From: Acidobacteriaceae bacterium
GTDB taxonomy: Bacteria; Acidobacteriota; Terriglobia; Terriglobales; Acidobacteriaceae
Assembly: GCA_003142935.1 (NCBI GenBank)
Contig: PLOG01000217.1
Location: forward strand, 43,834 to 91,474
Length of the DNA stretch: 47,641 bases
Direction: 5' to 3'
The notes under the pieces were generated by a model. It ran no database searches and was not told where the DNA came from. It was given only the letters and a program-made list of their open reading frames with translations. The translations under genes were made by a program, and so were the position numbers. Positions 11,769 to 46,658 of the stretch are shown here, piece by piece. Positions within the stretch are counted from its first letter, which is position 1. Each line of letters begins with the position of its first letter.

Positions 11769-12485
11769 ATGTTTGAAGATTCTACGTTTGAATCCGGAGG
11801 CAGGATCAAGACCAAGAGCGGCCGTTGGATGATGTTCACAGGCATCGTCAACGGTTCCATCCTTGTGCTTCTTATCCTTATTCCGCTGATCTATCCCGAG
11901 GCGTTGCCCAAGGGCGCCATGCAGACCTTGCTTTTTGCTCCGCCTCCGCCGCCCCCTCCGCCTCCGCCTCCGCCTCCACCCGAGGTCGTGCACATTGTCC
12001 ATGTGCAGTCGGAGATGATGAACAACCAGCTGACTGCGCCCACGCGAATTCCACATAACATCACCATCGTGGCCGAGAAGGAAGCCCCACCCTCCACTTT
12101 CGGCGTGGCCGGAATGGAAGGCCTTGGTGGAAGCGCCAGCGGCGTGACCGACAGCATGTTTAACCAGGCCAACAAGGTAAAGGTCGCCCCGCCCAAAAAA
12201 GTGAGCATCTCGGCCGGCGTCATGGTCGGCATGCTGATCCAGAAGACGCAGCCGATCTATCCGCCGATCGCCAAGGCTGCCCGCGTCTCTGGCACGGTGG
12301 TGCTCCAGGCTACCATCTCCAAGGCGGGAACGATTGAAAACCTGCACGTCATCAATGGGCCGGCCATGTTGCAGCAGGCTGCGATGGATGCCGTGAGGTC
12401 CTGGCGCTACAGACCCTACCTGCTCAATAATGAGCCGGTAGAGGTAGAAACCACGGTGAACGTGATCTTCACCCTGGGCGGATGA
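11769..12485 (+). CDS. Energy transducer TonB
   Basis: N-terminal TM, 14-Pro run, C-terminal TonB domain 'QPIYPPIAKAARVSGTVVLQATISKAGTIENLHVINGPAMLQQAAMDAVRSWRYRPYLLNNEPVEVETTVNVIFTLGG'. Confidence 0.92.
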   Translation: MFEDSTFESGGRIKTKSGRWMMFTGIVNGSILVLLILIPLIYPEALPKGAMQTLLFAPPPPPPPPPPPPPPEVVHIVHVQSEMMNNQLTAPTRIPHNITIVAEKEAPPSTFGVAGMEGLGGSASGVTDSMFNQANKVKVAPPKKVSISAGVMVGMLIQKTQPIYPPIAKAARVSGTVVLQATISKAGTIENLHVINGPAMLQQAAMDAVRSWRYRPYLLNNEPVEVETTVNVIFTLGG

Positions 12486-12628: not shown

Positions 12629-13369
12629 GTGATTCTCGCTCAACTCGCACACTTCGCTACGCATACGGTCAGCAGCCTGGCACTTTTCCAGGATGAGCAG
12701 ACGGTCAGCTTCAGCCCCATGGGGCTGTGGGATCATATGGGATGGGCTGTTCGCGCCATCGCCATCACGCTTTTCATCGAGTCGATCTGGTCGCTGGCCG
12801 TTATGATCGACCGTTACCTGTACTTCTCTGCCGCCCGCAAGCAGTCGCGCGAGTTCGCGCCTAAGGTTGCCGGCGCATTGAAGGACAGCAAGCTGGAAGA
12901 GGCGATCAAGATCGCCGACCGTAACAAGAAGTCCCACCTGGCCGAGGTCGTCACGGCTGGTTTGCAAGAGTTCCGCGCTTCTGGTGGCACCGCTACCGAG
13001 GAGACCATCGCGAGCTCCGGCCGTGCGTTGGAGAGGGCTGAGGCCATCGTTCACGCCAAACTGAAGAGGGGCCTCTCGGTTCTCGCCACCATCGGCGCAA
13101 CCGCTCCCTTCGTCGGACTGCTCGGCACCGTCATCGGCATTCTGCACGCCTTTCAGCAGATCGCCACTCAGAAGACTTCGGGCATCGGCGCAGTTGCCGG
13201 CGGCATCTCGGAAGCCTTGGTCACCACCGCCTTCGGGTTACTGGTCGCCATCCCCGCCGTCATGACCTTCAACTACTTCACCGGTCGTGTCGAGAATTTC
13301 GACGTGGAGATGGATAACTCCTCCAGCGAACTCGTCGACTACTTCATCAAGCAGAGCCACAAGCGCTAA
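12629..13369 (+). CDS. MotA/TolQ/ExbB proton channel family protein
   Basis: 'RGLSVLATIGATAPFVGLLGTVIGILHAFQQIATQKTSGIGAVAGGISEALVTTAFGLLVAIPAVMTFNYF'. Confidence 0.92.
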   Translation: MILAQLAHFATHTVSSLALFQDEQTVSFSPMGLWDHMGWAVRAIAITLFIESIWSLAVMIDRYLYFSAARKQSREFAPKVAGALKDSKLEEAIKIADRNKKSHLAEVVTAGLQEFRASGGTATEETIASSGRALERAEAIVHAKLKRGLSVLATIGATAPFVGLLGTVIGILHAFQQIATQKTSGIGAVAGGISEALVTTAFGLLVAIPAVMTFNYFTGRVENFDVEMDNSSSELVDYFIKQSHKR

Positions 13370-13525
13370 GCGAGGCGACTGTCGGTTCGAGCGAGAACCT
13401 TCGGGGGCGGGAGAACCTGAAATCTCTCCTGCCCACCGCTTTCGACCTCGCGCAGACTACGCCTGCTTTCCAGCAATGCCGGAAGCCATCCGGGACGGAA
13501 ATTCAAAGGCAACGGAGTTTTAACA

Positions 13526-13966
13526 ATGGGAATCGCGGTTCGTAACGAAGGCTCCAAGGTTAACTCGAATATCAACGTCACACCCATGGTGGATGTGATG
13601 CTGGTACTGCTGATCATCTTCATGGTGATCACCCCCATGCTCCAGAACAAGGTCCAGATCGATATGGCGCAAGTGGACAACGCCGTTGCCATGCCCGACG
13701 CTGACAAGGAAGACGCCATTGTGGTCGCTGTCACTCGCGATGGTGGTTTGTTCCTGGGGCAGGACAAGGTCGCTCCCGATCAGCTCGGCCGGATGGTGGC
13801 AGACAAGCTGGCTGATAAGCCAGGCAAAACGATCTATGTTCGCGCGGATGCGCGGGCGCAGTATAAGGCGGTCGAAGACGCCATCGACGACGTTCGCACT
13901 GCCGGCGTGGATGAAGTGGGCTTGCTGACCCAGAAAAAGGCCGGCGACCTCGCAGGTGGCGAATAA
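13526..13966 (+). CDS. ExbD/TolR biopolymer transporter (first copy)
   Basis: 'SNINVTPMVDVMLVLLIIFMVITPMLQ'. Confidence 0.92.
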   Translation: MGIAVRNEGSKVNSNINVTPMVDVMLVLLIIFMVITPMLQNKVQIDMAQVDNAVAMPDADKEDAIVVAVTRDGGLFLGQDKVAPDQLGRMVADKLADKPGKTIYVRADARAQYKAVEDAIDDVRTAGVDEVGLLTQKKAGDLAGGE

Positions 13967-14020
13967 GTCTGCCGTTGTGCTGGCTCTTAACGATTTCAAG
14001 TAAACGAGGAGTTTGAAACC

Positions 14021-14458
14021 ATGTCAATGACGACTGGAGGCGGGGGAGGCTACTCGTCCGACATCAATGTTACGCCCATGATCGACATTCTGCTGGTGCT
14101 GTTGATCATCTTCATGGTCATCGTGCCGGTGACTCCAAAGGGCCTGGATGCGCTGGTGCCCCAGCCGCCCAAGAACCCTGAGAAGCAGCAGCAGCCCAAT
14201 GACCGCACCATCGTCGTTCAGGTTCTGTATCGTCCCGGCGCGCCGCCGGCATACAAGATCAACGAGACGGATGTGGCCAAGACCGATTTGCTGTCCAGGC
14301 TGACAGAGATTTACGCCAACCGTGCCGAGCGCGTCATGTTCGTCAGGGGCGACGACGATCTCAACTTCGCCTATATTGCCGAAGTGATCGATATCGGCCG
14401 TGCGGCCAACGTGGATCACATCGGGTTGATGACGCCGAAGATTCAGGCTGGCCAATAG
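14021..14458 (+). CDS. ExbD/TolR biopolymer transporter (second copy)
   Basis: 'SDINVTPMIDILLVLLIIFMVIVPVTPKGLDALVPQ'. Confidence 0.92.
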   Translation: MSMTTGGGGGYSSDINVTPMIDILLVLLIIFMVIVPVTPKGLDALVPQPPKNPEKQQQPNDRTIVVQVLYRPGAPPAYKINETDVAKTDLLSRLTEIYANRAERVMFVRGDDDLNFAYIAEVIDIGRAANVDHIGLMTPKIQAGQ

Positions 14459-15735: not shown

Positions 15736-15764
15736 TTGACGCCGATTCCCGGTTTAGATATATT
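15736..15764 (+). promoter_or_regulatory. Near-consensus sigma70-type promoter
   Basis: TTGACG (15736-15741), 17-nt spacer, TATATT (15759-15764). Confidence 0.6.
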
Positions 15765-15770
15765 TGACCG

Positions 15771-15901
15771 ATGGAGATTCGAATCATCCCGGCTGTGAGC
15801 GACGCAAGTTGTTGCGTGCAGTTCAGGCTGTGTGGGTGAATCCGAAAAGATTCAACGATTCTCCACATGGCCGCGTTTCAGCCTCAGCTGACGCGGCTTT
15901 T
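15771..15901 (+). ncRNA. Candidate structured small RNA or 5' leader element ending in an intrinsic terminator
   Basis: Nested pairings TGGAGA/TCTCCA (15772-15777/15860-15865), GAATC/GATTC (15781-15785/15849-15853), ATCC/GGGT, ACGCAA-GTTG-TTGCGT (15802-15817), then terminator stem GCCGCGT/ACGCGGC with T-rich tail. Confidence 0.5.
15870..15901 (+). terminator. Orphan intrinsic terminator
   Basis: GCCGCGT (15870-15876)/ACGCGGC (15891-15897) then TTTTCTATTT; no CDS ends just upstream on this strand. Confidence 0.65.
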
Positions 15902-15955
15902 CTATTTCCAGCGTAAGAAAAAATCGCCCCATTCCGGAATACACATCAAGGTGCA

Positions 15956-16030
15956 ATGAGCTTCGCTTCTTCCCCTTCCCGGCTACACGCCTCCGCCCAG
16001 CAGCGGAGCGCTTGTTGTTGTTGTCGCTAG
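15956..16030 (+). CDS. Poly-cysteine leader peptide (uORF) upstream of the TonB-dependent receptor
   Basis: ATG...TAG encodes MSFASSPSRLHASAQQRSACCCCR*; four consecutive TGT codons (16013-16024) just before CGC TAG; absent from the ORF track because it is below 60 aa. Confidence 0.6.
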   Translation: MSFASSPSRLHASAQQRSACCCCR

Positions 16031-16156
16031 CTCACGCCCGTCCCCACACAAACTGAATGTTGAGCGCAAGACCAGGGAATCCACCGGTCCCACGCTCACC
16101 TGAACGCGCCGGCCTCTCGATAGGCCGCACATGCAACCCACTTCCTCGGAGGCAAC

Positions 16157-19100
16157 GTGATTCTCACCACAAAGCTGCATCGCATATTGGCCGTTCTGCC
16201 GCTGCTTGTTCTTTCAGTGGCCGCACACGCACAGATCGTTGGTGGATCCATCAGCGGCCTGGTCAAGGATTCAACTGGGGCGTCGCTGGCCGGCGCAACG
16301 GTAACCGTGCGCCAGATTGAAACCGGCGCGACACGCATACTTGCCACCAACGGTGACGGCCGGTTCTACGCTCCTTCCGTGCCTGTCGGCGATTATCTGG
16401 TCTCGGTGGCCCATGACGGGTTTGAGACCGGACGGCAAAGCGGCATCTCTCTGGCCATTGGACAGAGCCTGCAATTGAACTTCGCGCTGGGCGTAGAAAA
16501 GAGCCAGCAGCAGATCGTTGTCAACGCCGAACAAAGCAGCGTGAATACTACAACTCAACAGACTGCCGGCCTCATCAATGAACGCGCGGTCAAAGAGCTG
16601 CCCCTGAACGGCCGCAGCTTCGATGAACTGCTCACACTGAATCCGGCAACGGTCAATTACACCAACCAGCGCTCCGGCGGCATCGGCACCTCGAATTCCT
16701 CTGTCGGCAACATGTTTGCCGTCAGCGGACGCCGCCCCCAGGACAATGTCTTCCTGCTCAATGGCATTGAATACACCGGCGCCTCTCTTATCAATGTCAC
16801 GCCGGGCGGCACCAGCGGCGAACTTCTGGGCGTGGATGCTGTTCGCGAGTTCAACGTGGCCACCGATACTTACGGCGCGGCCTTCGGCAAGCGCGACGGC
16901 GCTCAGGTCAGCATCGTCACCTCTTCCGGGACCAACAAGCTGCACGGCGCGGCGTTCGAGTTCATCCGCAACAGCGCGCTCGACGCCAGGAACTACTTCG
17001 ACGTTGGATCGATCCCCGAATTCCAGCGCAATCAATTCGGCGGCTCGCTCGGCGGACCCATTCGCCACGACAAGTTCTTTCTGTTCGGCAACTACGAAGG
17101 CTTCCGGCAAAACTGGGGACTGAGCGCGGTCACGCTGGTTCCGGACAACGAGGCGCGGCTGGGGTATCTGCCCAACTCGGCGGGTGTCGAGCAGCATATT
17201 GGCGTCAACGCCGCCGTGCAGCCGCTGCTGGCGCTATGGCCGGTTGCGAATGGTTCCGAACTTGGCGGCGGCATTGCGGAAGCCTTCAGCCATCCGCAGC
17301 AAAAGATCCGCGAGAACTTCGGCACCGCTCGTTTCGACGACAATCTCGCCGCCAACGATTTGCTCTTTGGCGTCTACACCGTTGACGACAGCAGCGCCAA
17401 CACGCCCTCGCAGAATCCGCTCAGCCTGATCAACGAGAGCCTGCGCGAGCAGGTGGCCAGCATTCAGGAGCAGCATGTATTTTCTCCTTCGCTGCTCAAC
17501 ACGGCGCGCTTCGGCTACTCGCGCGCCAGCTTCTTCTTCACCGGGTACACGCCGATCAATCTGTCCGGTTGGGTCAGCGGCAAGCCCATCGGAGCCATCG
17601 TCATCAGCGGCAGCACCGCATCGAATGGCGCATCGGCAATCACGCAGGCCGGCCTGAACGTGGGCAGCAACAACACCACGGCACGCAATCTTTTCACTGT
17701 CGACGATCACGTTTACTGGTCGCATGGCAAGAGCCAGATCGAAGCGGGCGTCTGGCTGCAGCGCCTCCAATCCAACGACTTGCTTGCGCAGGACCAGTAT
17801 GGACAGGCTTCGTTCGGCACGCTCGCCACTTTCCTGCAAGGCACGGTGAAGACCTTCACCGTTGTCCCCTCCCCTACCGAGCTAGGCTGGCGTTCCTTTG
17901 AGGGCGCCGGCTTCGTCGAAGACACGGTCAAAGTGACGCCAAGGCTCGAGCTGCGCGCTGGATTCCGCTTCGAGTCGACCGACGGTTGGAACGAAGCACA
18001 GGGGCGCGCGGCCAACTATGCTCTCGTCAACGGCGTCCTGCAGACGCAACCGATTGTCGGCAGTTCGGCGCTCACAAACAACCGTGCTAAGTTTCTGCCT
18101 GCGCCGCGCGTCGGATTTGCCTGGGACGTGTGGGGCAACGGCAAGACCGCAATCCGCGGCGGCTTCGGCCTCTATCATGGCCTGCTGGATACGCTCGATT
18201 ATCGCCTCGATCAGACGGCGCCTTTTAACACCGCCGAATCCATCAAGAACATCGCCGTCTCCCACCTCTCCTTCACCCCCGGAACTCCCCCGCCTGCCGG
18301 CGCGCTCGTCTCGCCCAGCAACGTGCAGCCCGACATTGCCACGCCCGCGGTGCTGGAGTGGAGCCTGCGTGTCGAACAGCAGGTTGAGTCGAACACCTCG
18401 CTCACCGTTGCCTATGTGGGTTCGCACAGCTATCATCAGATTCTCTCTGAAGACATGAACGAGCCTGTGCCGACCTATCTCGCCAATGGATCGCTCTTCT
18501 ATCCCACAAACGCCGCGAATGCGAATCCGAGTCTCGCCAACTCCACATCATGGGTATCGCAGGGCGTGGGTCTCTACAACGCGCTGGAAGTGGATGTGCG
18601 CCGCTCCTTTGCAAACGGTTTTCAGTTCCGCGGCAACTACACCTGGTCAAAGAACCTCGACGACGGCTCGGCATGGAACACCAGCGTCAGCGGCAACACG
18701 CCCGCCTTTGTCGAGTTCCCGTTAGATCCCAAGTTGGACTGGGGCCCCGCGGCCACCGACGTGCGTAACGCAGCCTCCATCAATGGCAGTTACGAGCTTC
18801 CCTTCGGACCGCAGCATCGATTCCTCAACCACGCATCGAAGCCAGTCGATTTCCTGGCGGATGGTTGGACTGTCAGCACCATTGTCGCCCTCGAAACCGG
18901 CTTTCCTTTCACACCGCAGCTGGGCTATAACCCCACCGGTAATGGCGACACACGCAATCCGGTACGGCCCAACTGGAACCCGGCATTCCACGGAAACCTC
19001 TATCCGCGCACGGCCAGCCAATACTTCAACCCCGCTGCGTTTCTTCCCCCGGCCACCGGAACTTACGGCAATGTTTCGCGTGATTCCCTGACCGGGCCGG

Positions 19101-19330
19101 GACTATCGGAGCTTGACCTCTCGGCGACAAAGAACTCGCACATCACGGAACGGCTTGGCTTGCAGTTCCGTGCGGAGTTCTTCAACATCATCAACCGCAC
19201 AAACTTCCTGACGCCGAACGAGGTGGTCTACTCTGCGGCGGGCTCGGGCATCTCGCCGACCGCCGGCCTGGTGACAGCGACGTCCACAACCTCCCGGCAG
19301 ATTCAGTTCGGGGCAAAGCTACAATTCTAG
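16157..19330 (+). CDS. TonB-dependent receptor with N-terminal carboxypeptidase-regulatory-like domain (Oar-like)
   Basis: 'GGSISGLVKDSTGASLAGATVTVRQIETGATRILATNGDGRFYAPSVPVGDYLVSV', plug 'LPLNGRSFDELLTLNP', C-terminal 'LGLQFRAEFFNIINRTNF...QIQFGAKLQF'; GTG start with SD cGGAGG. Confidence 0.93.
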   Translation: MILTTKLHRILAVLPLLVLSVAAHAQIVGGSISGLVKDSTGASLAGATVTVRQIETGATRILATNGDGRFYAPSVPVGDYLVSVAHDGFETGRQSGISLAIGQSLQLNFALGVEKSQQQIVVNAEQSSVNTTTQQTAGLINERAVKELPLNGRSFDELLTLNPATVNYTNQRSGGIGTSNSSVGNMFAVSGRRPQDNVFLLNGIEYTGASLINVTPGGTSGELLGVDAVREFNVATDTYGAAFGKRDGAQVSIVTSSGTNKLHGAAFEFIRNSALDARNYFDVGSIPEFQRNQFGGSLGGPIRHDKFFLFGNYEGFRQNWGLSAVTLVPDNEARLGYLPNSAGVEQHIGVNAAVQPLLALWPVANGSELGGGIAEAFSHPQQKIRENFGTARFDDNLAANDLLFGVYTVDDSSANTPSQNPLSLINESLREQVASIQEQHVFSPSLLNTARFGYSRASFFFTGYTPINLSGWVSGKPIGAIVISGSTASNGASAITQAGLNVGSNNTTARNLFTVDDHVYWSHGKSQIEAGVWLQRLQSNDLLAQDQYGQASFGTLATFLQGTVKTFTVVPSPTELGWRSFEGAGFVEDTVKVTPRLELRAGFRFESTDGWNEAQGRAANYALVNGVLQTQPIVGSSALTNNRAKFLPAPRVGFAWDVWGNGKTAIRGGFGLYHGLLDTLDYRLDQTAPFNTAESIKNIAVSHLSFTPGTPPPAGALVSPSNVQPDIATPAVLEWSLRVEQQVESNTSLTVAYVGSHSYHQILSEDMNEPVPTYLANGSLFYPTNAANANPSLANSTSWVSQGVGLYNALEVDVRRSFANGFQFRGNYTWSKNLDDGSAWNTSVSGNTPAFVEFPLDPKLDWGPAATDVRNAASINGSYELPFGPQHRFLNHASKPVDFLADGWTVSTIVALETGFPFTPQLGYNPTGNGDTRNPVRPNWNPAFHGNLYPRTASQYFNPAAFLPPATGTYGNVSRDSLTGPGLSELDLSATKNSHITERLGLQFRAEFFNIINRTNFLTPNEVVYSAAGSGISPTAGLVTATSTTSRQIQFGAKLQF

Positions 19331-42213: not shown

Positions 42214-42242
42214 TTGTGCAGACTCCGGCTTTTTGCTACTAT
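42214..42242 (+). promoter_or_regulatory. Sigma70-type promoter of the cys operon
   Basis: TTGTGC (42214-42219), 17-nt spacer, TACTAT (42237-42242). Confidence 0.6.
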
Positions 42243-42252
42243 GGTGAGACAC

Positions 42253-42321
42253 ATGAACCGCGAAACCCAACGCCGCTCTTGTTGTTGCCTGTCGAACATC
42301 TTCGACGGGTGTCCCCGCTAG
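42253..42321 (+). CDS. Poly-cysteine leader peptide (uORF) upstream of cysD
   Basis: ATG...TAG encodes MNRETQRRSCCCLSNIFDGCPR*; Cys codons TGT TGT TGC at 42280-42288; hairpin starts at the last base of the third Cys codon. Confidence 0.7.
   Translation: MNRETQRRSCCCLSNIFDGCPR
42288..42309 (+). promoter_or_regulatory. Hairpin directly after the Cys codons, inside the uORF
   Basis: CCTGTCGAA (42288-42296)-CATC-TTCGACGGG (42301-42309), 9 bp with one T-G pair. Confidence 0.65.
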
Positions 42322-42410
42322 TCTCTGATCCCAAGCACAATCGATTCAGAAGACACACCCGTAGCTGACATGCCGGGCGAGTCTTCACGTTGCACCGGCC
42401 TTCAGCATTC

Positions 42411-42430
42411 ACCTTCAAGTTAAATGAGGT
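42411..42430 (+). promoter_or_regulatory. Possible Shine-Dalgarno-sequestering hairpin before cysD
   Basis: ACCT(T)CA-agttaaa-TGAGGT, pairing the GAGG SD 7 nt before the cysD ATG (one bulged T). Confidence 0.4.
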
Positions 42431-42436
42431 CATGCA

Positions 42437-43393
42437 ATGCCGGCAGCCGAAACACAAACAGGTCCACAATCGCCGCACGTCACAGGCAACGCGCCGCCGC
42501 GGCTGAGTCACCTGCGCCTGCTTGAAGCCGAGAGCATCCACATCCTGCGCGAGGTCGCCTCGGAGTTTGAGCGGCCGGTGATGCTCTACTCCGTCGGCAA
42601 GGACTCGTCGGTGATGCTGCGGTTGGCGCAGAAGGCTTTTTATCCTGCGCCGATTCCTTTTCCGCTGCTGCATGTCGACACCGGATTCAAGTTTGCGGAG
42701 ATGCTGACATTCCGCGACGAGATGGCCCGCTCCATCGGCGCGGAGTTGCTGGTGTGGCGCAATGAACAGGCCATAGCCGCGGGGACAAATCCGATTGCGC
42801 TCGATACCAAACGCTGCTGCGGACTGCTGAAGACGCAGGCGCTGTTGGATGCGTTGCGGCACTACAACTTTGACGCCGCTTTCGGTGGCGCGCGCCGCGA
42901 CGAGGAGAAGTCGCGCGCCAAGGAGCGCATCTACTCGTTCCGCGACAGCGCGGGGCAGTGGGACCCGAAGAATCAACGTCCCGAGTTGTGGAACCTCTAC
43001 AACGCGCGCATCCATCCCGGCGAAAGCATTCGCGTCTTCCCGCTCTCCAACTGGACGGAGATGGATGTTTGGCAATACATCCACGAAGAGAAGATTCCGG
43101 TGGTCGATCTCTACTTTGCGAAGGAGCGGCCAATGTATGTCCGCGGCGATGAACTGCTGCCCATCGAGCAATCTTTTGTAGCGCGCCTCGGCGAGCAGCC
43201 GCAGATGGTGAAGTCGCGGCTGCGTTCGCTGGGCTGCAGCCCGTGCACGGGTGCTATCCGTTCCGATGCGGAGACCATTCCCGCGATTATCTCGGAGCTG
43301 ATTTCGTTCCGCTCTTCCGAGCGCGCCAACCGCGCCATCGACCACGATCAGGAAGGGTCAATGGAGATCAAGAAGCGGGAGGGATATTTCTAG
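42437..43393 (+). CDS. cysD: Sulfate adenylyltransferase subunit 2
   Basis: '[64 protein letters not shown]'. Confidence 0.96.
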
Positions 43394-45163
43394 ATGTCGA
43401 TGCTGGCGGCTCCCACATTCTCCATTGACGAGTTTCTGCAGCAGGAGCGCGAGAAGGACCTGCTGCGCTTCTCGACAGCCGGCAGTGTGGACGACGGAAA
43501 GTCCACACTCATCGGGCGGCTGCTTTACGATACGCAATCCGTCTACGAAGACCAGGTGCGCTCGATTGAAGGAAAGGGAACGACCGCGCCGGGACAGATC
43601 GATTTCGCGCTGCTTACGGACGGGCTCCGCGCCGAACGCGAACAGGGCATCACGATCGATGTTGCCTACCGCTATTTCTCCACGGCGCGGCGCAAGTTCA
43701 TCATCGCCGATACGCCCGGCCACGAGCAGTACACGCGAAATATGGCAACCGGCGCGTCGACGGCCGATGCGGCGGTGGTTCTGATCGACGCCAGCAAGGG
43801 AGTGCTGATCCAGTCGCGCCGTCACGCTTACATTGCGTCGCTGCTGCGCGTGCGTCACGTTCTGGTGGCGGTGAACAAGATGGATTTGATCGGCTACGAC
43901 GAAGCGGCCTTCCGCGCCATCGAGGCGGACTTCAGCGCCGTTCTGGATCAGATTGCGGCCGATACCGGCAACCCGGTGGAGCGGATCGTTGTGCCGGTGA
44001 GCGCGCTGAAGGGCGACAACATCGTTCACAAATCGAATGCGATGGATTGGTACAAGGGACCATCGCTGCTGGAGTTGCTGGAGACCGTGCCGCCCTCGGT
44101 CGACACGCGCACTGCGCCGTTTCGATTTCCGGTGCAACGCGTGCTGCGGCCTGACCACACGTTCCGCGGATTTGCAGGGCAGATTGCTTCGGGAACCATT
44201 CGTTCCGGCGATGCGATCACCGTGTTGCCTTCGGGTAGAAGCGCAAGAGTCGAGCGCATTGTTACCTGGGACGGCGATTTGACCGAAGCCATTGCGCCGC
44301 TTTCCGTCACGCTGGTGCTCGATCGAGAACTCGATATCAGCCGCGGCGATCTGGTTGTTTCTTCCGAGACTCCGGCGACGGTTTCGAAGAGCGCGAAGGC
44401 CGCGCTGGTGTGGATGGATCAAAGGCCGCTTGAGCTGCATCGCCGCTATCTGCTGAAGCACACCAGCCAGACGGTGCCTGTGTTCGTTACCTCCATCGGT
44501 CACCGCACCGACCTGGGCACGTTGAATCACGAGCCGGCGCGAACGCTGCACATGAACGACATCGGCTCTGTGACCGTGAACCTGCTGCGGCCCATCGCGC
44601 TCGATGCTTATGAAGAAAACCGCAGCACCGGCGCCTTTATTTTGGTTGACGCAGAGACCAACGGGACGGTTGCGGCGGGCATGATTTCCGCGGCGTACAG
44701 CGAGACGGCAGCGGGTGCGCCGTTGCTCGCCGACGCGTGGGGCCCTTTGACGGCCGGGGAAAAGGAGGCGCGTTGGGGGCATCGCGGCGCGATTCTCGAA
44801 CTGAAAGGACCGAAGGAATTGGTGGACGCGATTGAACGCTCGCTGTTTGCGGCCGGCGCTGTTCCGGTTCGCATCGAGGCCGGCGACGATGCCTTCGTGC
44901 TTCATCCGAGCCTGCTGGAGATTGCGACCGCATTGCAGGTGCGGGCCGGGCTGCTGGCGCTGGTTGTCGACGCGAACGAAGCCAGTACGCTGATTGCGCG
45001 AATTGAAGGCCGGGAGGCGATTGTGAATGCGGCTGACATGCGCGATGCGGACGATACCGACGATGCGAACGATGCCAGGCGAGCAGGCAAGGCCGTCGCG
45101 GCCGTTCACCAGCTGCTGCGCGATGCGGGAGTTTTTATCTCTTCGGAAATGGCGGGGTTGTGA
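43394..45163 (+). CDS. cysN: Sulfate adenylyltransferase subunit 1 with degenerate C-terminal APS-kinase-like extension
   Basis: 'LRFSTAGSVDDGKSTLIGRLLYDTQ', 'IADTPGHEQYTRNMATGAS', 'VNKMDLIGY'. Confidence 0.95.
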   Translation: MSMLAAPTFSIDEFLQQEREKDLLRFSTAGSVDDGKSTLIGRLLYDTQSVYEDQVRSIEGKGTTAPGQIDFALLTDGLRAEREQGITIDVAYRYFSTARRKFIIADTPGHEQYTRNMATGASTADAAVVLIDASKGVLIQSRRHAYIASLLRVRHVLVAVNKMDLIGYDEAAFRAIEADFSAVLDQIAADTGNPVERIVVPVSALKGDNIVHKSNAMDWYKGPSLLELLETVPPSVDTRTAPFRFPVQRVLRPDHTFRGFAGQIASGTIRSGDAITVLPSGRSARVERIVTWDGDLTEAIAPLSVTLVLDRELDISRGDLVVSSETPATVSKSAKAALVWMDQRPLELHRRYLLKHTSQTVPVFVTSIGHRTDLGTLNHEPARTLHMNDIGSVTVNLLRPIALDAYEENRSTGAFILVDAETNGTVAAGMISAAYSETAAGAPLLADAWGPLTAGEKEARWGHRGAILELKGPKELVDAIERSLFAAGAVPVRIEAGDDAFVLHPSLLEIATALQVRAGLLALVVDANEASTLIARIEGREAIVNAADMRDADDTDDANDARRAGKAVAAVHQLLRDAGVFISSEMAGL

Positions 45164-45861
45164 TGAGCACAGTTGAGATCAATTCAGAAGTGAACGCGAA
45201 GCTGGAGCATGTGCGCGCCACGCTCGCTCGGGAGATCAAGGGCAAAGGGGACGTGTGCCTCACTTGCAGCTTTCAAGCCGAGGACGTGCTGCTGACAAAG
45301 CTCGGGATCGCGCTCGATCCAGGGGTTCCGATTCTCTTTCTCGATACCGGCTATCACTTCAAAGAGACCTATGAGTATCGGGATCGGATTGCGCGCGAGT
45401 GGGGTCTGAACCTGATCAACCTGCTGCCGGAAAAGACAGTGGCCGAACAGGAGGCAGAGTTTGGCTTGCTCTATCAGACCGCGCCGGACCGTTGCTGCGG
45501 GCTGCGCAAGGTAGAGCCGCTGTTCAAGGCGGTTGCAAATTATCGCGTATGGCTTACCGGGCTGCGCCGGGAGCAGGCAAAGAGCCGCGCGGCACTTGAG
45601 GAATCGGCGATGTTTGCGTTGCCGGGGGGCAAGCAGGTGCTGAAACTTGCGCCGCTGGCCGAGTGGACCACGCGCGATGTGTGGTATGCGTGCGAGCAGT
45701 TGTCGATTCCGCTGCTGCCGCTTTACGAGCGCGGCTACTCTTCGATCGGATGCGAGCCTTGCACGACTCTTCCACTCGACCCGAACGATCCACGCTCGGG
45801 GCGCTGGGCCGGGCGCAAAGTGGAGTGCGGAATTCACATTCAGGCTGCGCCGGCACAGTAA
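45163..45861 (+). CDS. cysH: Adenylyl-sulfate (APS) reductase-type CysH
   Basis: 'CSFQAEDVLLTKL', 'FLDTGYHFKETYEYRDRI', 'CCGLRKVEPL', 'GCEPCTT'; the CC and CxxC motifs suggest a [4Fe-4S] APS reductase. Confidence 0.92.
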   Translation: MSTVEINSEVNAKLEHVRATLAREIKGKGDVCLTCSFQAEDVLLTKLGIALDPGVPILFLDTGYHFKETYEYRDRIAREWGLNLINLLPEKTVAEQEAEFGLLYQTAPDRCCGLRKVEPLFKAVANYRVWLTGLRREQAKSRAALEESAMFALPGGKQVLKLAPLAEWTTRDVWYACEQLSIPLLPLYERGYSSIGCEPCTTLPLDPNDPRSGRWAGRKVECGIHIQAAPAQ

Positions 45862-45890
45862 GACGCGAACGGAGAGATCGGGGCTAGGGG

Positions 45891-46658
45891 ATGCAGTACA
45901 TTATCGGGTTCATCATCGCACTGTTCATTGCGCTCACCGGCGTAGGCGCGGGAACTGTCACGGTGCCGATTCTAGTGCTGTTTCTCGGAGTCCCCGCGCC
46001 GGAAGCGGTTGGCATTGGACTGATGTTCGCCACGGCTGTGAAATTGATTCTGGTGCCCGCGCAGATTCTGCGCCGCAACGTGGCGTGGCGCACGCTGGGC
46101 TTTATGCTCCTTGGCGGAGTGCCGGGCGTTTTGCTGGGGTCTCTGTTTTTGAAACACCTGGTCACCACGGGCTCGCAAAATCTTCTCAATGCATTGCTGG
46201 GCACGATCCTGGTGAGTACGGCAAGTTGGCAGATCTTCTATGCTCTCCGTCCGGCGAGGGAGAATCACGATTCCCGCGACCGCAGTCCGCTGCTTGCGTG
46301 GCTGATGTTTCCGGTTGGCGCGGAGGTGGGCTTTTCCTCCGCAGGAGCGGGCGCGCTGGGCAGCGCTGCCTTGCTGAGCCTGACTCCACTGGCGCCCGCG
46401 CAGATTGTCGGCACCGACATCGCCTTTGGATTCACGGTCTCGCTCATCGGCAGCGGCGCGCATTGGTTTTCGCACGCGGCCAATCAGGAGTTACTGATTG
46501 CGCTCATTGCCGGCGGCGTCTTCGGGGCCATCACCGGGACGGTGTTGAGCACGCACATTCCGCGCCGGCCCTTGCGGTTTGCGCTCTGGGTCTGGCTGCT
46601 GATTCTGGGCGGGGAGTTCATATTCAATAGCTATCACGTGTGGGCGGCGACGCGGTAG
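45891..46658 (+). CDS. TauE/SafE-family sulfite exporter/anion permease
   Basis: 'IIGFIIALFIALTGVGAGTVTVPILVLFLGVPAPEAVGIGLMFATAVKL', 'VGFSSAGAGALGSAALLSLTPLAPAQIVGTDIAFG'. Confidence 0.88.
   Translation: MQYIIGFIIALFIALTGVGAGTVTVPILVLFLGVPAPEAVGIGLMFATAVKLILVPAQILRRNVAWRTLGFMLLGGVPGVLLGSLFLKHLVTTGSQNLLNALLGTILVSTASWQIFYALRPARENHDSRDRSPLLAWLMFPVGAEVGFSSAGAGALGSAALLSLTPLAPAQIVGTDIAFGFTVSLIGSGAHWFSHAANQELLIALIAGGVFGAITGTVLSTHIPRRPLRFALWVWLLILGGEFIFNSYHVWAATR

Follow-up and report, generated by a model that had tools for sequence, protein, structure and literature searches.

The question raised by this locus is whether a TonB-dependent receptor (TBDR) gene of an Acidobacteriaceae bacterium is controlled by the charging of tRNA-Cys. 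The window, which is the whole 47,641-nucleotide stretch of DNA analyzed, contains a short upstream open reading frame (uORF) with a run of cysteine codons before the receptor gene. We call it uORF2, since a further uORF lies upstream of it. The elements are as follows.

15956-16030, forward strand: uORF2, MSFASSPSRLHASAQQRSACCCCR followed by a stop; ATG at 15956, TAG at 16028-16030, with a Cys run near the C-terminus that is conserved in orthologs
16148-16152, forward strand: Shine-Dalgarno (SD) sequence GGAGG of the TBDR
16157-19330, forward strand: TBDR of 1057 amino acids, CarboxypepD_reg and OMP_b-brl_4 (Pfam PF25183, E 1e-180; PF13620, E 1.6e-19)

uORF2 ends with four Cys codons, all of them TGT, followed by CGC and TAG, and a gap of 126 nt separates its stop from the TBDR GTG at 16157. 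The original prediction, made from the sequence alone, had described a 24-codon Cys4 uORF at this distance, had considered the Cys run before a stop unlikely by chance, and had assumed that TGT is disfavored against TGC. All three points held, and the coordinates were confirmed exactly. In the 5.2 Mb genome, TGYTGYTGYTGYCGN plus a stop occurs once (the pattern search gave two TRR matches, the other of which ends in TGG), against a chance expectation of about 0.02 by a mononucleotide estimate made by hand. TGT accounts for 25% of the Cys codons (41/166) in the 32 long ORFs of the window, whose GC content is 60.8%. A TGT-rich form of the Cys-run pattern matched 35 times in 399 genomes of the order, compared with about 11 times for a reversed-pattern control. 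Other CCC-N-stop matches in the same genome looked like coding noise and were set aside.

The receptor satisfies the criteria for an Oar-like TBDR, an N-terminal CarboxypepD_reg domain and an outer-membrane beta barrel, by PF13620 and PF25183. In the Pfam scan, the Plug model gave no match in the window protein and a weak match in one ortholog (L041). Upstream in the window, a TonB-like energy-transducing protein that contains an extended poly-proline stretch and then ExbB/ExbD-like frames were noted at 11769-12485 and 12629-14458; this annotation was made by eye only.

The original prediction had proposed an alignment of the regions upstream of orthologous receptors. The ortholog sample consisted of the TBDRs of the genus that share at least 63% identity and whose upstream sequence was available. 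Poly-Cys uORFs were found upstream of 21 of the 22 orthologs, most of which have both uORF1 and uORF2; the Cys runs are conserved and the other codons drift. A comparable uORF was found upstream of only two of 40 paralogs (about 28-40% identity; Fisher p = 3e-13). Among the paralogs, one uORF match and a similar near-miss belonged to the nearest paralog group or looked weak. The presence of the two uORFs and their conservation with this receptor are shown by sequence and comparison. The single ortholog without a Cys leader (G001) has a gene for an Rrf2-family regulator just upstream instead (PF02082, E 1.7e-33). This gene, CymR-like by eye, occupies the site where the Cys leader is expected (L108), and it is possible that RNA control was exchanged there for protein control.

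Leadered TBDRs also occur in another genus of the family, including Terriglobus albidus, and are 60-64% identical to the window TBDR. Distant homologs at 52-56% identity (L121-L124, L128) have no poly-Cys uORF. In a sample of 396 genomes of the phylum, the exact-motif leader is essentially restricted to Acidobacteriaceae. Non-acidobacterial matches were about as many as the pattern is expected to give by chance, and they were set aside. Some further arrangements were observed. Two members of the closest paralog group (L194, L195; 35-37% identity) share a uORF ending ELDAKCCRAC-stop or ELAVKCCCTS-stop, possibly an independent Cys leader. In two genomes of genus g24 (L092, L094), TBDRs have successive uORFs ending CCCR-stop and then CCCCR-stop, about 125 nt apart. 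In G020 (L029/L042), a leader with the same terminator tail and CCRCCCCR-stop is followed by a possible inserted element and no TBDR.

Upstream of uORF2, we found a promoter and uORF1.

15736-15764, forward strand: promoter TTGACG-N17-TATATT, found by promoter scan; a -35/-10 pair lies at the same place in orthologs
15771-15839, forward strand: uORF1, the Cys leader MEIRIIPAVSDASCCVQFRLCG followed by a stop, with the regulatory Cys codons TGT TGC at 15810-15815

The promoter scan upstream of uORF1 found one promoter, compared with a mean of 0.2 in shuffled sequences. Since the uORF1 ATG lies 6 nt past the -10 hexamer, the transcript is expected to start at or next to this ATG, and uORF1 would be leaderless. 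The start is inferred from the promoter and has not been mapped, and translation of the uORFs is likewise inferred. In 21 loci, the window included, the uORF1 start lies 6-10 nt after the -10 box. These orthologs (the window and 20 others) have a uORF1-like uORF of 22-26 codons whose Cys codons occupy similar positions, and the remaining residues vary, as in MGLCHTPAPCCACCCAPRRSCG and MRFHLRPAACRACCSTLCRSCR. TGT makes up 74% of the uORF1 Cys codons versus 25% in genes. Against an attenuator, the window uORF1 has only one CysCys pair and three Cys in all, and the orthologs have three to seven. The original prediction had missed the part that tells more, which is this leaderless uORF1, its promoter, the terminator described below and, at the far end of the window, a cysD operon headed by another Cys leader.

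Two RNA structures follow from the uORF1 region.

15826-15872, forward strand: antiterminator helix, in which the 3′ half of uORF1 including the stop pairs with the pre-terminator segment and the terminator 5′ arm
15869-15907, forward strand: intrinsic terminator, GGCCGCGTTTCAGCCTCAGCTGACGCGGC plus TTTTCTATTT, -19.1 kcal/mol; its position is shared by 16 orthologs, which show compensatory changes

The terminator is a G+C-rich hairpin with a T-run. Its stem is retained with compensatory changes in all 16 aligned close orthologs. In the window the T-run is interrupted (TTTTCTATTT), which counts against it, and the terminator is absent from one ortholog subclade (L116-L120), so that the transcriptional gate is not universal. 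The antiterminator was analyzed by constrained folding of truncated transcripts, with a ribosome placed either on the central CysCys codons or on the stop codon. In the window, the helix has -23.9 kcal/mol with the ribosome on CysCys and -2.1 with the ribosome on the stop. The same behavior, formation with CysCys occupied and loss with the stop occupied, was computed for 16/16 close orthologs. Arms from the same species pair with a mean of -18.7 kcal/mol versus -15.6 for arms of mismatched species, a difference reached in 3 of 20,000 permutations. Against dinucleotide shuffles, the z-scores average -2.5, and three orthologs are weak (L102, L107, L125). These statistics rest on related genomes; kinship affects the arm-swap test less than it affects plain conservation, but the test is not free of it. 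The promoter, the terminator and the co-variation of the antiterminator are shown by sequence and comparison. The leader fulfills three criteria of leader-peptide attenuators: a short ORF close to the promoter with regulatory codons for a single amino acid, an intrinsic terminator behind it and, by computation only, a mutually exclusive antiterminator set by the position of the ribosome. This arrangement is the classic one of ribosome-mediated transcription attenuators, and cysteine as its signal is inferred.

After uORF1 and the ribosome-dependent helices were found, we abandoned the idea that the structured 5′ region is a riboswitch. No Rfam family reached the gathering score in the window; one sub-threshold match lies on the terminator of the upstream gene, not on the leader.

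We then consider uORF2. Its Cys run near the C-terminus is kept in orthologs, usually followed by (S)R-stop.

15988-15993, forward strand: GCCTCC inside uORF2, complementary to GGAGGC at the TBDR Shine-Dalgarno; suggestive only

In 10 of 17 orthologs, the best SD complement of the whole leader lies in the segment of uORF2 before the Cys codons (binomial p about 0.006), and in 17/17 the complement in this segment is within the top 10% of windows. The GCCTCC of the window can alternatively pair inside uORF2, which weakens the anti-SD reading. Furthermore, no consistent Shine-Dalgarno sequence for uORF2 itself was found across the orthologs, and we count this as a weakness. How uORF2 acts is inferred. 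Translational attenuation is slightly favored, and Rho-dependent attenuation remains possible.

Leaders of this type are also associated with sulfur genes. One such operon lies in the same window.

42214-42242, forward strand: promoter TTGTGC-N17-TACTAT of the cysD operon, read from the sequence; a TACTAT-like box lies at the same place in the cysD loci of the genus
42253-42321, forward strand: cysD Cys leader uORF, MNRETQRRSCCCLSNIFDGCPR followed by a stop; present at 29/30 cysD loci of the genus, with strong nucleotide conservation
42437-46658, forward strand: cysD-cysN-cysH-TauE/SafE operon (PF01507, GTP_EFTU, PF01507, PF01925)

The form M....SRSCC[CR]LSNIFDGC.. plus stop was found at 29 of the 30 loci. 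The leader RNA (42253-42436) has a mean column identity of 71% over 29 sequences, third codon positions are conserved too, and a hairpin follows directly after the Cys codons; it has no Rfam match. Constrained folding of this leader gave no ribosome-dependent change in SD exposure (mean SD pairing 0.77 with the ribosome stalled versus 0.82 at the stop).

In relatives, a wide-net search for CCCCR-stop gave mostly coding-region noise (TGG endings and antisense frames, e.g., L043, L045-L053). We retained a match only if it was intergenic, had a start and was followed by a sulfur or outer-membrane gene. CCCC(C)R-stop leaders precede ATP sulfurylase/APS kinase (L059), a PAPS_reduct protein read as CysD (L071), ThiF-rhodanese MoeZ-like genes (L057, L063), ThiS-ThiF (L044), PF03601 YeiH-type transporters (L064, L065), a redoxin (L074), and TBDRs, including a TBDR with cysDNH. 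At L037, the leader precedes a DUF3034-type outer-membrane protein and then genes read as cysK and cysE; at L039, it precedes an Alginate_exp porin, then cysD-cysN-cysH and a TauE-like gene. The TBDR ortholog adjoins cysD in four genomes (G076, G014, G398, G008). In Terriglobus albidus DSM 26559 (NZ_JAGTAS010000058.1), the gene directly ahead of the leadered TBDR was read as a PF03601 transporter from its C-terminus, by eye and without a scan. The association with sulfur genes is shown by these comparisons. A point against the explanation given below is that the cysK and YeiH homologs of the window's own genome have no Cys leader upstream.

Two side observations concern these leaders. CCCCR-stop leaders occur on outer-membrane porin-like genes (DUF3034, Alginate_exp) at L037, L038, L039, L040 and L095, and these are candidate porins for sulfur nutrients. 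Before a redoxin-domain secreted protein (L074, L078, L090, L091, L093), a leader ending SRLCCCCR-stop is followed by a highly conserved stretch of about 40 nt; at L090 and L093, a separate uORF, MRTLSQLCCC(F/S)R-stop, lies nearby on the other strand.

We consider it likely that the 5′ leader of the TBDR is a cysteine-responsive ribosome-mediated transcription attenuator with a second, poly-Cys uORF gate, and that the TBDR belongs to a sulfur regulon; no expression, Ribo-seq or mutational data exist. In this view, transcription would start at or next to the uORF1 ATG and uORF1 would be translated leaderless. With ample Cys-tRNA, the ribosome would reach the uORF1 stop, cover the uORF1 tail and block the antiterminator, and the terminator at 15869-15907 would halt transcription. 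If charged tRNA-Cys runs short, the ribosome would wait at the tandem Cys codons at 15810-15815, the uORF1 tail would capture the terminator 5′ arm, and the polymerase would read on. The readthrough RNA would then reach the second gate, uORF2, where a waiting ribosome would probably mask a CCTCC-type anti-SD sequence or a C-rich Rho-loading stretch. The TBDR would be translated or fully transcribed only in cysteine shortage, and would join a cysteine/sulfur regulon that includes the leadered cysDNH genes of the same window. From this membership it follows that the receptor probably imports a sulfur-containing nutrient.

The original prediction had placed the receptor under the control of Cys-tRNA charging. 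This is supported by the conservation, the attenuator anatomy and the related leaders of sulfur genes, with the response to cysteine itself inferred. Its choice of the Cys4 uORF as the sensor had to be amended, as the evidence for a Cys sensor is strongest for uORF1, which lies upstream. The import of a sulfur- or cysteine-related nutrient, also part of that prediction, is an inference about the ligand only.

Four other explanations were considered. The one that survives best is that uORF2 governs Rho-dependent termination rather than TBDR translation, to which we give less credit than to its negation. In its favor, most orthologs have a spacer between uORF2 and the TBDR that is rich in C and poor in G; the window spacer has 51 C and 28 G. 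However, the SD complement is enriched inside uORF2, and PMC13236596, which cites Canestrari 2020, describes translational attenuation for the mycobacterial poly-Cys uORFs.

According to the second explanation, only uORF1 and the terminator matter, and uORF2 is a relic or a mere aid to reinitiation. The clean switch in uORF1 and the lack of a consistent SD for uORF2 speak for it. However, the uORF2 Cys run is kept across orthologs, the window uORF2 encodes all of its Cys residues with the rarer codon TGT, and other sulfur genes are headed by a single uORF of the CCCCR-stop type. This explanation is unlikely.

A third possibility is that the signal is a metal (copper or zinc) or the redox state, perceived by the nascent Cys-rich peptides, and not Cys-tRNA charging, as with CruR upstream of BfrG in Bordetella. 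A TonB-dependent transporter under a Cys-containing uORF is indeed already known (PMC9426467). However, CruR is a DUF2946 protein of about 140 amino acids that carries CXXC and the arrest motif RAPP and works through Rho, whereas the peptides here have 22-32 codons, are divergent except for the Cys placement, and head sulfur-assimilation genes. In addition, the RNA switch is placed for a ribosome stopped at Cys codons. We regard metal or redox sensing as very unlikely. Finally, that these are chance ORFs and the Cys run a TGT-repeat accident is all but excluded: intergenic DNA often contains short ORFs, and a loose CCCCR-stop pattern does match noise inside coding regions, but the ortholog-versus-paralog conservation (p 3e-13), the exact promoter-start spacing, the co-varying RNA and the sulfur-gene association already contradict it.

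The tandem attenuator reading can be compared with known systems. In mycobacteria, leaderless short ORFs with poly-Cys have been reported to be cysteine-responsive attenuators (Canestrari et al. 2020, Mol Microbiol 114:93; PMC8764745; cited in PMC13236596). As there, a uORF with consecutive Cys codons, inferred to be leaderless, lies ahead of genes, and both criteria, CysCys and the heading of sulfur genes, are satisfied here. The present leader differs in its occurrence in Acidobacteriaceae, in the intrinsic terminator/antiterminator under uORF1 and in its two tandem Cys uORFs, and the mycobacterial uORFs are not known to have TBDR or porin targets. The Cys leaders of the two groups are inferred to be most likely convergent; within the phylum sample, the exact DNA motif hardly occurs outside Acidobacteriaceae. 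The uORFC-8-2 motif upstream of cysS in Rhodobacterales also has tandem Cys codons at positions 14-15 and then an intrinsic terminator, and is predicted to act by ribosome-mediated attenuation (PMC8632094). However, it belongs to another phylum, targets cysS and has a single uORF; the window leader, upstream of a TBDR, would work in a like manner, but is not a member. With the classical attenuators (trp, his, ilv; Mycobacterium tuberculosis ilvB1 in PMC13236596), the leader shares a leader peptide with regulatory codons and mutually exclusive antiterminator and terminator, whereas the cysteine signal, the leaderless start, the outer-membrane receptor as target and the second downstream uORF are different. 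CruR-BfrG of Bordetella (PMC9426467) likewise places a TonB-dependent transporter under a uORF, but CruR senses copper by CXXC in a long nascent protein, with RAPP arrest and Rho termination. Membership of the CruR type (DUF2946 protein, CXXC, C-terminal RAPP) is not met by uORF1 or uORF2, whose peptides have 22 and 24 amino acids, respectively, and no RAPP.

The original prediction knew of no TBDR under a poly-Cys leader, and our targeted search of the literature available to us found neither a TBDR under a Cys leader nor a Cys leader in Acidobacteria. In a survey of 2010, hardly any of the attenuators predicted in Acidobacteria had been assigned a function (PMC2965389). The principle of attenuation is already known; the phylum, the kind of target and the tandem layout are new. 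To our knowledge, no TBDR under amino-acid attenuation has been reported earlier, and this would be the first. If true, it is a clear case of a tandem attenuator arrangement. The bolder reading, on balance the one we lean towards, is a tandem two-gate cysteine attenuator on the TBDR and a regulon of Acidobacteriaceae that joins sulfate assimilation to the import of an unidentified sulfur nutrient across the outer membrane. Many TonB-dependent receptors of Acidobacteria have no known substrate, and the TBDR query gave 22 matches in its own genome alone. The conserved cysteine-attenuation leader marks out one orthologous group of these receptors as related to sulfur, and offers a defined condition under which its ligand can be sought by assay.
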